Part shown: piece by piece, positions 55,459 through 59,722 of the stretch
Layout: each line of letters opens with the position of its first letter
How positions within the stretch are numbered: position 1 is the stretch's first letter
DNA from: Cyanobium sp. Aljojuca 7A6
GTDB taxonomy: Bacteria > Cyanobacteriota > Cyanobacteriia > PCC-6307 > Cyanobiaceae
DNA: 64,000 nucleotides
Reading direction: 5' to 3'
Assembly: GCF_024346455.1 (NCBI RefSeq)
Contig: NZ_JAGQCY010000013.1
Span: forward strand, 1 to 64,000
The notes under the pieces: model-generated
Told to the model about the DNA's origin: nothing
The model's database searches: none
The model's input: only the letters and a program-made list of their open reading frames with translations
Program-made: the position numbers and the translations under genes

Positions 55459-56150
55459 CGGGATCCCCCATCACCAGCTCGTTCATTCAGACGGCGCAGG
55501 GCCAACTCGGCCCGTAGCCGCACCACGGGCGTGTCTTCGAGGCAAGGCTTCGCCAGGCTGCTCAAGGAATCCTGGGCCCGCCTGCGCAGATCGCTCTCCG
55601 GGGAGAGTGTGAGGGCCAGCGATTCCAGACCCACCACCACGGCGTAGCGCACCACCCATTCGCCATCGCGGCAGGCGGCCTCGAGCGCCGTCAGGCAACG
55701 CCCGTTGAGGCGCTCCCGTTCTTCGCCCTGAAGGCCTTCATGGCTCAGTTGCCCCAGGCCCCTGGCGGCGGCCCGGCGCACACTGGGTCCGACGTCCTTG
55801 CCAAGGGCCCCCTCCAGCAGCTCCAGTCCCCGCACATCCCGGATTCCCGCCAACGCGCGCACGGCCCAGGCGCGCGCCCCATAGTTGTGCTCATCCAGGG
55901 TGGCCAGCAGGGGTTGCACCGCTGCCGTTCCGATGGCGATCAGGCCCTCCACGGCGGCGACGGAGGCCCCAGGGTTGTTGAAGCCCAGCACCCGGATCAG
56001 ACAGTCGATCGCCTCCGCATCCCCGGCCCCACCAGTCATGCCGGCCAGGTTCTCGGTGGCCACTAGCAGAGCATCGGAGCTGTCGGCCTGCTCCACCGCT
56101 GCGATCAGATCCTGAAACGGACGCATCATCTGGCCTCGGTGCGTGTTCAA
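55455..56150 (-). CDS. cpcF: CpcF-like phycobilin lyase subunit (HEAT repeats)
   Basis: Protein of 231 residues made of HEAT-like helical repeats from about residue 45 (for example AVEGLIAIGTAAVQPLLATLDE and RAWAVRALAGIRDVRGLELLEGAL). CpcF with CpcE attaches phycocyanobilin to Cys84 of the phycocyanin alpha subunit, and related pairs handle other bilins. Translation starts at a TTG overlapping the CpcE stop (TTGA) or at ATG 56129. Which bilin and subunit it uses cannot be decided here. Confidence 0.75.
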   Translation of the reverse strand: MNTHRGQMMRPFQDLIAAVEQADSSDALLVATENLAGMTGGAGDAEAIDCLIRVLGFNNPGASVAAVEGLIAIGTAAVQPLLATLDEHNYGARAWAVRALAGIRDVRGLELLEGALGKDVGPSVRRAAARGLGQLSHEGLQGEERERLNGRCLTALEAACRDGEWVVRYAVVVGLESLALTLSPESDLRRRAQDSLSSLAKPCLEDTPVVRLRAELALRRLNERAGDGGSR

Positions 56151-56980
56151 AGCAGTTCGTCCATGGCCGCCAGAAGGCTTTCCGTGTCGGGTTCCCCTTG
56201 GCCCTTCTCCACCAGCCCTCGCAGGGCGATCAGCTTGAGGCTGTTCTCCGCCAGCGTGCGGCGGATCGGTTCGAGGGCCGGACGCCAGCCCACGGCCCCA
56301 AGGTCCATCAGGGCGGCGCGACGCACCTGGAGTTGGGGATGCTCAAGAAGGCTCACCAATCCCTCAGCCCGCCGAGGATCGCCGCTGAGCAGGAAAAGGG
56401 CACGCCCGGCCGCACTGCGGATCAGGGGGCGATCATGGTCAAGGAAGGGCTCGATCACCGCCAGTACGGTGGTTTCCGCCACACCGATGTCTCCCAGGGC
56501 CTCCAGCATGGCCTCACAGGGCTCCCTCAGGCGGGGGCTGCGAGGATCGAGCGGTGCACCCGCCCCGGCCAGGCCACTGGCCAGACGTTGACAGAGGACG
56601 GCGACCGCCCCTTCGGCCCGCAACTCGCCCAGGGCGCGGGCGGCAGCCTCACGCAAGCCGTCGTCCTCGTCCTCCAGGGCGGCGAGCAGATCCGGGATCG
56701 CCTGGGGATCCCCCAGCTTCCCGAGGGCCCGGGCGGCATTGCGGGCCACGGCGTTGTGCTCCACTCCGGAGGCCGCTTCGCGGGGCTGCCTTCGGCGCAG
56801 GGCCGCCTGAAGCAGGGGCACCGCCTCGGGGTGCCGACTGCGCATGCGCCCCAGCCACCAAGCGGCATAGTACTGATCCGAATGATCGTCGATCTGGCGA
56901 AGTCGCTGCAGTGCTTCCGATTCGCTGATCGGTTCGCCGGCCCCGGCACGTGGGGAGGCCGGATCGGTCGTGCCAGTCAT
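56147..56980 (-). CDS. cpcE: CpcE-like phycobilin lyase subunit (HEAT repeats)
   Basis: Protein of 277 residues, recognised by YYAAWWLGRMRSRHPEAVPLLQAAL near residue 37, close to the start of CpcE proteins, followed by HEAT repeats such as NAARALGKLGDPQAIPDLLAALEDE. CpcE and CpcF work as a heterodimer that adds or isomerises the bilin on a phycobiliprotein alpha subunit. Here the pair is followed by a tyrosine phosphatase. The ATG at 56980 is clear. No phycobiliprotein gene lies nearby. Confidence 0.8.
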   Translation of the reverse strand: MTGTTDPASPRAGAGEPISESEALQRLRQIDDHSDQYYAAWWLGRMRSRHPEAVPLLQAALRRRQPREAASGVEHNAVARNAARALGKLGDPQAIPDLLAALEDEDDGLREAAARALGELRAEGAVAVLCQRLASGLAGAGAPLDPRSPRLREPCEAMLEALGDIGVAETTVLAVIEPFLDHDRPLIRSAAGRALFLLSGDPRRAEGLVSLLEHPQLQVRRAALMDLGAVGWRPALEPIRRTLAENSLKLIALRGLVEKGQGEPDTESLLAAMDELL

Positions 56981-57064: not shown

Positions 57065-57616
57065 GTGGTGTCAATGATCCTTGGTCGTCATGAACTCCGT
57101 GCCTGCCCCAGAGCCCCCAGAGGCCTGCTTCGGGGCGATCCCGACGCCTTGTCTCGACGCCTGTGGAGTGGCCCTCGTGTTCCGTCGCATTTTGCGCTCA
57201 GGGAGGGTATCGCCGGGCGGATCACCACCGAAGGCCACTGCATCGACACCGATCGTGTGAGGGTGCAGATCACCATCGAGGCGAACGATTACGTACAGAC
57301 CAACACGGTGCGGATTGATACTCCGTCCGAAGTCGTGGCGCAATATCAAGGCCATTTCCTCGACGGAACGCTTGCCTTTCCGCTCACTGACGAGGGTTAT
57401 ACCCTCTCCGGAGAAAAAGCCACAGCTTTCTCAGGAATCGCCTGGCCCATCAGCGATCATGTCATCGTCTACTGCGGCAGTCGCACCCTGTGAGGGGTCC
57501 GTACTCACTACAATGAGATCATTATGCTGCTCTCCGATGACCAGCGGGTGCTCACCACCCAGCTCTACGAAAATGGTATCTACACGCACGTCACGATGAT
57601 CCAAGAGTGGCGTTAG
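57065..57616 (+). pseudogene. Gene of unknown (calycin/DUF3598-like?) type with an in-frame stop
   Basis: A reading frame from about 57065 to 57616 is interrupted only by TGA at 57491-57493. Before it lies a beta-rich stretch (GRITTEGHCIDTDRVRVQIT, DYVQTNTVRIDTPSEVVAQY); after it the same frame goes on as THYNEIIMLLSDDQRVLTTQ and ends HVTMIQEWR before TAG. The alternation of strands and the LSDDQRVLTTQLY ending resemble a small calycin-type beta barrel, perhaps DUF3598, but I am not sure of the family. The first 45 residues look less convincing. Confidence 0.5.
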
Positions 57617-57782
57617 ACCGGTGGCTGAATTGCACGGCGACAACTAGTGTGCCGTCCCAGAGATTTGCGAGCAAAGTCGCTGGAGCTTCTCCAGGATTGA
57701 GTCCGCCGTCCCGGTCCAGTTGAACGGGGCCTTGGTCTTGTTGTAGGCCGCCACGAATTGCTCAATCTTGGCGATCAGCTCC

Positions 57783-57809
57783 TACCGCTGCGCGGAAGCC
57801 TCCGGCTAG
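57783..57809. repeat. Double mini-hairpin insertion E2 in the transposase
   Basis: Twenty-seven bases that interrupt the transposase frame further on. On the minus strand: AGCC-GGA-GGCT and CCGC-GCA-GCGG, again two tandem C-GNA-G hairpins. E1 and E2 share GCCGGAGGC and both end in GTA at the same relative side. Confidence 0.7.
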
Positions 57810-57876
57810 GACACTCGAGAAGCTTCCCCGTCGGATCGCCCGCTGGGTGATGCTCCCAAACCAGTGCTCCACCTGG

Positions 57877-57901
57877 TACGGCCTCCGGCCGACTTCGTCT
57901 A
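57877..57901. repeat. Double mini-hairpin insertion E1 in the transposase
   Basis: Twenty-five bases that interrupt the transposase frame. On the minus strand they read as two tandem hairpins with three-base loops: GAC-GAA-GTC and GGCC-GGA-GGCC. Both loops are of the C-GNA-G kind known to make very stable DNA mini-hairpins. Confidence 0.7.
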
Positions 57902-58891
57902 CAGCCAGGAGGCGTAGGTGGGTGTGTAGTGGACGTGGAAGCGGGGCCGCTGCGCCAGCCAGGCGCGGACCCTGGCGTGCTTGTGGGTGCAGTAGTTGTC
58001 CACGATCAGGTGGACGTCCAGATCCTCGGGAACGGACCTTTCGATCTGGCGCAGGAACCCCAGGAATTCCTGATGCCGATGGCGCGGTCTGCACCGGGTA
58101 AGCACCTCGCCGGTGGCGACGTCCAGGGCAGCGAACAGGGTGGTGGTGCCGTGACGGATGTAGTCGTGGGTAACTCCCTCCACGTAGCCAAGGCCCATGG
58201 GCAGTAGCGGCTGAGTCAGGTCTAGGGCCTGGATCTGTGTCTTCTCGTCGACGCAGAGCACCATCGCCTTGTCCGGTGGGTTCAGGTACAGGCCGACGAT
58301 GTCCCTGACCTTTTCAACGAAGAAGGGGTCGGTCGAGAGCTTGAACATCTTCTGCCGGTGAGGCTGCACCGAGAAGGTCTGCAGCCAGCGGTGAACCGTG
58401 GTTTTAGAAATGCCTGTCGCAGCGGCGAGGGTGCGGGCGCTCCAGTGGGTGCTGCCATCGGTGGGTTTGGTCTGCAGAGCCCGGTTGATCACCTCGGCCA
58501 CTGTGTCGTCCTCGTAGGTTCGAGGCCGGCCGGGACGCAGCTCATCGTGCAACCCCTCCAGGCCCAGCTCCCGATAACGCTTGCGCCACTTGCCGACGGT
58601 CATGCCCGTCAGCCCCATTCGCTTGGCGATGGCCGTGTTGGCTTCGCCAGCTCCGCAGGCCAGCACGATCTGAGCGCGCTGCACGATCGAATGAGGTAGC
58701 TAGCGAGAGCTGGCGATGCCCTGCAGTTGCTGAACCTCGTCATCGCTGAGGACCAGCGGTGGCATCGGACGGCCAAGCGCCACGGAGCACCTCGGATAAC
58801 ACTCCTGATTCTAGCTGTTATTTCCGGGACCGGACACTAAGTAGGCGTGAGATAATCAACTTCTGACGACCCAGATCCTGGCCTGATCACC

Positions 58892-59722
58892 ATGGCAAGC
58901 ACAACCAACCCGCGCAACGCAGGAGCTGATCGTCAGTGGGATCTGATGAGAGCCAGCTTTGATGGCGACTGGCAGGGGGTAACGACCTGGTATGGGCGAG
59001 ACAGCACAGGAATGGATCTGACCCGTGGAAAATCAGATCCAGCTGGATCGATGTATGCGATCCGTTTTACAGATGCCAACACGGGACTTTGGCACGGCAC
59101 GGGCTTGCGCTTCTCTCCAGGCGGGGAACGCAAGTTTCCGCTTATTCGGCATCGCTATAACTTGAGTAATCACTGTTGGCATTTTCCCCATACGGCAGGT
59201 CAGTCAAGTCTGGAGATGGATGGACGTGATGGCCGCGCAGGCCATGAAGTGAACTTCTTCAACTGCCGTTCTAGATCCATGCTCATAACTCTCTATCAGC
59301 GGCAAGAGGATCAAACTATGCTCCTGTAATCAATCGCTGCAACCCCCTTTCTCTGCCAGCGAGCGGCCGTGGATCCGGTTCGAGATCAACCAGCTTCCTC
59401 GCACGAACTCTTCCAGGTAATCACCGGCTGGCCTGGATTAGAGCAGGAACTGCGACCAGGACAATGGCCCGCTTGCACCCCTGCCGGCCGAAAAATCGCT
59501 GGTTTCGATATCAGATCCTTCCAAAAGTATGAGGTGGAGGGGCTATTTGGCGACAATCTCTTGTGTAGCTTGCCAAAAAGATTGCCCGATGGGCCCTTCG
59601 ATCTTAATTTTGGTTGCCTCTTAAGCTCCAGTGAATTTATACATCTTATGATGGAATACAATGAAAGTCATCAGCTGGTTCGTTGGGTCGAAAGTCGCTA
59701 TCAACCAACCATCGATGGATGA
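58892..59722 (+). pseudogene. Gene of unknown (DUF3598-like?) type with one in-frame TAA
   Basis: A frame of 277 codons from ATG 58892 to 59722 is interrupted by a single TAA at 59327-59329 (CAA to TAA would explain it). The first part has QWDLMRASFDGDWQGVTTWY and NCRSRSMLITLYQR; the second has EGLFGDNLLCSLPKRLPDG and FDLNFGCLLSSSEFIHLMM. The WxG...W...Y start and the alternating strands fit a calycin-type barrel of the DUF3598 kind, a guess I hold loosely. Alternatively these are two short genes, the second starting at GTG 59369. Its end overlaps the epimerase gene by 22 bases. Confidence 0.5.

Follow-up and report, generated by a model that had tools for sequence, protein, structure and literature searches.

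Tiny Mobile DNA Elements in an IS630 Transposase of Cyanobium sp. Aljojuca 7A6 Are of Kinds Scattered in a Freshwater Picocyanobacterial Group

Introduction

The closest described counterparts of the elements considered here are the short dispersed repeats (SDRs) of filamentous cyanobacteria. Those of Nostoc punctiforme, which go back to the work of Elhai and colleagues in 2008, are reportedly 21-27 nt long, dispersed and apparently mobile; several SDR families are said to share a predicted secondary structure that is backed by compensatory changes, and copies reportedly lie in heptamer repeats and in mini-transposons. To our knowledge, how repeats of 20-odd bases move has been an open question since that description. 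MITEs such as Nezha are far larger than the 24-25 nt elements of the present locus, and the byl mobile bypassing elements of yeast mitochondria are tiny hairpin inserts in genes. According to the accessible portion of PMC4390886, SDR5 inserts between nucleotides 3 and 4 of HIP1. The accessible portion of PMC3733652 reports GTAG REPs in filamentous cyanobacteria and Cyanothece, states that they are thought to require RAYT, and names Nezha as a MITE.

The locus analyzed here lies in a 64,000-nt stretch of DNA from Cyanobium sp. Aljojuca 7A6 (contig NZ_JAGQCY010000013.1), which we refer to as the window. Our analysis shows that a broken IS630-type transposase in the window carries two tiny mobile DNA elements of kinds that are scattered in a freshwater picocyanobacterial group, and that their location within a transposase is incidental. 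The idea of tiny inserting elements had been put forward in an initial annotation made from the DNA letters, and it is supported and was right in kind.

Results

The host insertion sequence occupies 57646..58838 on the minus strand (ends approximate and set by eye, similarity to other copies stopping about there). The IS630-type assignment of its gene comes from Pfam DDE_3 and HTH_29/32 matches, and several plasmid matches of the gene carry the annotation 'IS630 family transposase'; the window's genome has only two further matches to this IS, both partial. The two insertions lie on the minus strand after ...YASWL and ...SFSSV, exactly where they had been annotated, and measure 24 and 25 nt rather than the 25 and 27 nt first given. 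One is a type I element (TAGACGAAGTCGGCCGGAGGCCGT, 57878..57901, minus strand) that replaces the first A of the AAC codon following YASWL and creates an in-frame TAG, which terminates the main remaining open stretch of the transposase (57899..58684, minus strand). The other is a type II element (TAGCCGGAGGCTTCCGCGCAGCGGT, 57784..57808, minus strand) that follows SFSSV and is preceded by one extra base; the type I insertion adds +23 net and the type II insertion +25. On the minus strand the junctions read CTG before TAGACGAAGTCGGCCGGAGGCCGT and ACCAG after it, and GTCC before TAGCCGGAGGCTTCCGCGCAGCGGT and AGGAG after it. An additional in-frame TAG near the N-terminus of the transposase (58700..58702, minus strand) is not part of any element. 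Elsewhere in the window, positions 57065-57616 hold an open frame that, by eye, apparently resumes in frame past a TGA at 57491-57493 and looks like a gene split by a single nonsense codon, the first part of which has no Pfam match, and positions 56147-56980, near the IS630, hold a HEAT/PBS-lyase-like repeat protein.

Each element consists of two tandem hairpins, GAC-GAA-GTC and GGCC-GGA-GGCC in type I and GCC-GGA-GGC and CCGC-GCA-GCGG in type II, and all four have the C-GNA-G loops that the initial annotation described. The common layout, from 5' to 3', is TAG, a hairpin with a C-GNA-G loop, either TT or nothing, a second such hairpin, and a final T. Both elements do contain GCCGGAGGC, as had been noted, but it is part of hairpin 2 in one and of hairpin 1 in the other, and they hence represent two different sequence types. 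The earlier view of one kind of inserting element stands, but the two are not copies of one sequence. A known RNA family was considered and rejected, as Rfam gave no match within 57600-58900.

Confinement of the motif to this place had been named as the observation that would speak against insertion, and the motifs are widespread elsewhere, with unrelated flanks and clean edges. With up to three mismatches allowed, 14 of 31 genus genomes contain type I, at 22 places in all and with varied flanks (the reversed-pattern control gave 2), and the near-exact type I pattern is found in 40 stretches of an 84,980-species genome collection, every title being cyanobacterial and including Synechococcus, Synechococcaceae, Cyanobium, Vulcanococcus, Microcystis elabens FACHB-917 and other cyanobacteria. 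The type II pattern occurs at 86 places in 38 of 42 genus genomes (control 4), about a quarter of these places being, by eye, look-alikes without pairing. A covariance model of type II (R1), built from 22 sequences with the window copy included, gave matches in all 42 genus genomes at E 0.05, 1-42 in each and 465 in sum, with at most 150 candidates scored per genome and a few genomes having weak matches only; the window copy itself scores E 1.5e-8 against this model, whose training set includes it. The window's own genome has eight R1 matches, imperfect ones among them, and the type I sequence once. A strict structural scan of 459 kb (the window and 395 kb of its own genome) gave nine overlapping matches that amount to five places, namely the two elements of the window and three doubtful ones, versus two in one simulated control, and this genome is therefore poor in strict copies. 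Phage carriage was considered and rejected in so far as the three exact element patterns had no match in IMG/VR, which leaves room for diverged copies. A native coding sequence and chance were also considered as explanations of the two stretches, and are ruled out by the empty relatives described below and by the controls.

Intact IS630 relatives carrying the same bases had likewise been named as evidence against insertion, and an alignment of the genus IS630 copies shows that both window sites are empty in several copies and filled in others. In the other copies the empty type I site (site A) reads CTGAACC, CTCAACC, CTTAACC or near variants, and the empty type II site (site B) reads GTCAAAGAG or near variants, while a third site (site C; GCCAAG and variants) is occupied in copies other than that of the window. 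An element is present at site A in the window, L034 and L038, at site B in the window, L088, L007, L010 and L024, and at site C in L007, L010, L024, L026 and L038. For each pair among the three sites all four combinations of presence and absence are seen, which requires repeated insertion, loss or recombination; the filled copies that were compared have no similarity outside the IS, and shared sites could stem partly from recombination between IS copies. At sites B and C one additional base stands before TAG, which is not given by the simple exchange rule described next.

That rule comes from 36 hand-picked filled sites whose flanks were joined and searched for empty relatives in 42 genomes, leaving out relatives with gaps of more than 12 bases (counted as filled) or with fewer than 17 of 24 flank positions matching. 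An empty relative is present for 27 of the 36 sites, the other nine having none among the loci compared. Each of these 27 has a best empty form in which precisely one base separates the flanks (A at 24, T at 2 and C at 1). An A occupies the target base in some relative for 26 of the 27; at other sites, C, T or no base takes its place in a few relatives. Hence X-TAG...T-Y stands for X-A-Y, with a net gain of +23 (type I) or +24 (type II), and with one base exchanged at 27 of 27 sites there is no target duplication. In examples, the flanks with and without the element are 98-99% alike. At the L046 site, the target base of the empty relative L178 is T and not A (TGTACG for TGAACG); this may be a footprint left by excision or simply a substitution.

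As the dinucleotide upstream of the element, 34 of 38 type I contexts have TG, 50 of 55 contexts of type II have TG, CG, TC or CC, and 40 of 46 contexts of a 22-nt relative discussed below have TG or CG; the starting TAG was imposed by the search pattern, as was the final T for type II and the 22-nt form. Insertion would thus occur mostly at Y-S-A (T/C, G/C, A), with the single A being replaced and no target duplication made. At position +1, 5% of type I contexts have C. HIP1 was rejected as a target of these families, as none of the 139 contexts is a HIP1 site. TAG is preceded by G in 92% of type I contexts, in 62% of those of type II and in 89% of those of the 22-nt form, and this G is host DNA. 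With this usual preceding G the element reads as GTAG followed by a hairpin, which is the tag of GTAG REPs, and this together with the small size agrees with a REP/REPIN-like element moved as single-stranded DNA by a Y1 (RAYT) transposase of the IS200/IS605 type. However, the unit is made of two small tandem hairpins and is often intragenic, rather than being one imperfect extragenic palindrome, and we know of no one-base exchange in the REP/REPIN-Y1 group, which counts against such an origin.

The distribution of candidate enzymes bears on this as well. Of 42 genus genomes, only 6 have Y1_Tnp (PF01797; IS200/605, RAYT), 11 have reverse transcriptase (RVT_1) and 4 have Cas1, and the window's genome has no match to any of them, with the caveats that draft genomes can miss genes and that past activity or a transposase can be lost. 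Among the nine genomes with at least 20 R1 matches, one has Y1 (G021, a weak partial match), four have RT and two have Cas1, while G047, G007, G015 and G011 have none of the three. The survey covered these three families, none of which looks like the required enzyme. We therefore regard movement by a Y1 transposase as quite unlikely. Target-primed reverse transcription, or Cas1-like integration of short fragments, would fit a short structured unit with precise joins, but four of the nine copy-richest genomes lack both enzymes and Cas1 would be expected to leave the target duplication that is absent here, and we consider this route very unlikely.

The pairing of the hairpins is conserved. The search pattern leaves three stem pairs of type II unconstrained; among 55 distinct contexts these are Watson-Crick in 55, 54 and 53 versus 28.6, 28.9 and 38.5 expected, and the middle base of the loop is A, C or G. 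In the 22-sequence R1 alignment 98.1% of cells are paired, and none of 500 shuffles attains this percentage or the covariation score, whereas two of the five measures fall within the shuffles, 72 of 500 being as good for pairs changed on both sides and 168 of 500 for further pair types. The loci were gathered by sequence pattern or model, which favors well-paired copies and biases all such figures upwards. The folding energy as single-stranded DNA is modest (z -0.8 to -2.2), and the predicted DNA fold of the type I element retains hairpin 2 only. The case for the elements is hence one of dispersal, empty sites and covariation and not of folding energy. The structure-driven spread that had been suggested is supported by the covariation; its driving enzyme is putative. 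Replication errors of an enzyme-free nature, in the form of template switching or hairpin-primed repair synthesis, could conceivably yield both hairpins and a single-base exchange. A donor copy is needed, however, because the same sequence families recur at many unrelated sites, and the bases up- and downstream of these sites vary beyond the short YSA-like motif, so we consider such an enzyme-free origin unlikely.

Relatives of the elements extend into the wider class. R1 has matches, mostly weak, in 83 of 242 class genomes, and 47 of 291 class genomes contain, with at most one mismatch, a recurring form of 22 nt, TAGCTTGCTTC[CT]GCGNAGC[AG]GT, at up to 58 places (G150), the control giving one match (G237). 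The open stem pair of this form covaries (C-G in 24 and T-A in 22 of 46 contexts). The likeness to the short dispersed repeats of filamentous cyanobacteria drawn at the outset was apt, in that this relative resembles them in layout, inserts by the same rule as types I and II and is also found on a Nostoc plasmid. In several genomes, 22-nt copies lie, by eye, within heptamer-like tandem repeats.

Other 22-nt copies lie within the T-loops of various tRNA genes and follow the same exchange rule. When the element is replaced by one A, ARAGORN predicts a tRNA that is new or of normal length at 14 of 23 places. In six arrays of 24-29 tRNA genes (L332-L337), selected for having matches, 18 of 160 tRNAs counted after this replacement are interrupted in the T-loop, 2 to 5 per array, and on six Nostoc and Tolypothrix plasmids chosen by similarity the figure is 1 of 138, the identity of that tRNA being unclear. 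Over-long tRNA-Arg(acg) predictions of 100 nt in L332 and L337 and of 97 nt in L341 may hide another kind of insert. An HNH endonuclease gene lies close behind the tRNA array in four of six annotated plasmids (L338, L339, L340 and L341; Nostoc, Tolypothrix). We found no report of tRNA T-loop insertions of this kind in the open-access literature, which was searched in part.

Turning to the hosts of types I and II, ten stop-to-stop frames that span or touch empty sites (a filled one in L155) were compared with Pfam and comprise two IS3-type integrase cores, one IS66, one each of AAA ATPase, alpha/beta hydrolase, ChrR cupin and DUF4357, and three with no match; for the non-IS frames the site may lie outside the true gene. 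Several hosts are transposases (IS630, IS3-type and IS66) and, by eye, the same IS site is occupied in several genomes, as would be expected if a rare ancient insertion had since been copied solely as a passenger of insertion sequences, with no recent mobility of its own. Against this stand the four combinations across the three IS630 sites, the frames matching AAA ATPase and alpha/beta hydrolase, the 22-nt relative in many different tRNA genes and the near identity of flanks with and without the element, and we judge a purely passenger history to be decidedly improbable.

Orientation was assigned for the 93 type I and II contexts from third-position GC, giving 36 sense, 32 antisense, 15 unassigned and 10 with flanks too short. 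The TAG is exactly in frame in 25 of the 36 sense contexts, and by codon position the sense insertions number 25/11/0 versus 410/400/96 occurrences of the target motif in the same stretches, the contexts not being independent of each other. The motif accounts for part of the excess at codon position 1, though perhaps not for the whole of it; selection for an in-frame stop was rejected as an explanation, the excess being at least partly a matter of where the motif falls in codons. A leading TAG followed by hairpins resembles a bypass signal, and the in-frame count is somewhat above the motif-only prediction, as might be so for tolerated inserts that, in the manner of mobile bypassing elements or introns, are skipped by ribosomes or taken out of the RNA. 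Nevertheless, 32 of the 68 assigned insertions are antisense, which is evidence against ribosome bypass and a difference from byl elements, no landing codon is apparent, and some host genes are, by eye and among the matches listed, visibly decayed; an origin of this type is exceedingly unlikely. Two different epimerase-like genes (L039 and L043, by eye) are interrupted in antisense at the same GxxGY^IG spot, and neither has an empty relative among the loci compared.

Discussion

The two elements of the window and their relatives are dispersed, have clean edges, exchange one base, conserve their pairing and recur at identical sites of different IS copies. We propose, with a probability of about 0.8, that both stretches are tiny, non-autonomous mobile elements of the SDR kind that exchange one A and move as a folded strand. 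The element would travel probably as single-stranded DNA, or possibly as RNA, and a putative trans-acting enzyme of the cell or of another mobile element would cut and join the folded strand. In such a scheme the hairpins would be the recognized feature and the one-base exchange the mark of the joining step, and insertion sequences that carry an element would multiply it further by hitch-hiking.

The likeness to SDRs is considerable. The window elements, at 24 and 25 nt, lie inside the size range reportedly spanned by SDRs, types I and II are dispersed in many copies at unrelated sites, they have a common structure with compensatory changes (as far as collection by pattern, which biases this upwards, allows), their filled and empty sites indicate past mobility (an empty relative exists for 27 of 36 sites), and the 22-nt relative lies in heptamer-like repeats (by eye). 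The insertion point that PMC4390886 gives for SDR5 in HIP1 corresponds to GCG^ATCGC, the same G^A junction as that of the picocyanobacterial elements. In contrast to SDRs, types I and II come from a different clade, the freshwater Synechococcus/Cyanobium/Vulcanococcus, and do not lie at HIP1 sites. On the SDR features compared, types I and II are of the SDR kind, but they probably represent other sequence families and reside in picocyanobacteria.

Other known systems are more distant. As far as the accessible portions of PMC3733652 and PMC3116915 describe them, GTAG REPs and REPINs with RAYT are similarly small, hairpin-forming and dispersed, and most copies here share the GTAG end, but the present elements are tandem mini-hairpins, are often intragenic, and occur in a genus in which 36 of 42 genomes have no Y1/RAYT match. 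MITEs such as Nezha are also non-autonomous and dispersed, but the elements here make no target duplication and, by eye, have no terminal inverted repeats. We found no report of such elements in picocyanobacteria in the open-access literature, part of which was searched.

On a broader level, we tentatively suggest, at somewhat less than even odds, that the elements of 22-25 nt reflect an as yet undescribed activity, present in parts of the cyanobacterial class, that recognizes tandem C-GNA-G mini-hairpins and swaps an A at YSA for the folded strand. They would then belong to the smallest mobile DNA that integrates by a precise chemistry of its own, and they repeatedly hit tRNA T-loops. Worth following up are the exchange of one base, the distribution and the insertions into tRNA T-loops. 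With a one-A exchange, a YSA target, several copy-rich genomes that lack Y1, RT and Cas1, and carriers that are in culture, such as Synechococcus sp. WH 5701, the mechanism is directly testable. Short 'frameshifts' in cyanobacterial insertion sequences, genes and tRNAs may be mobile elements and not random decay.
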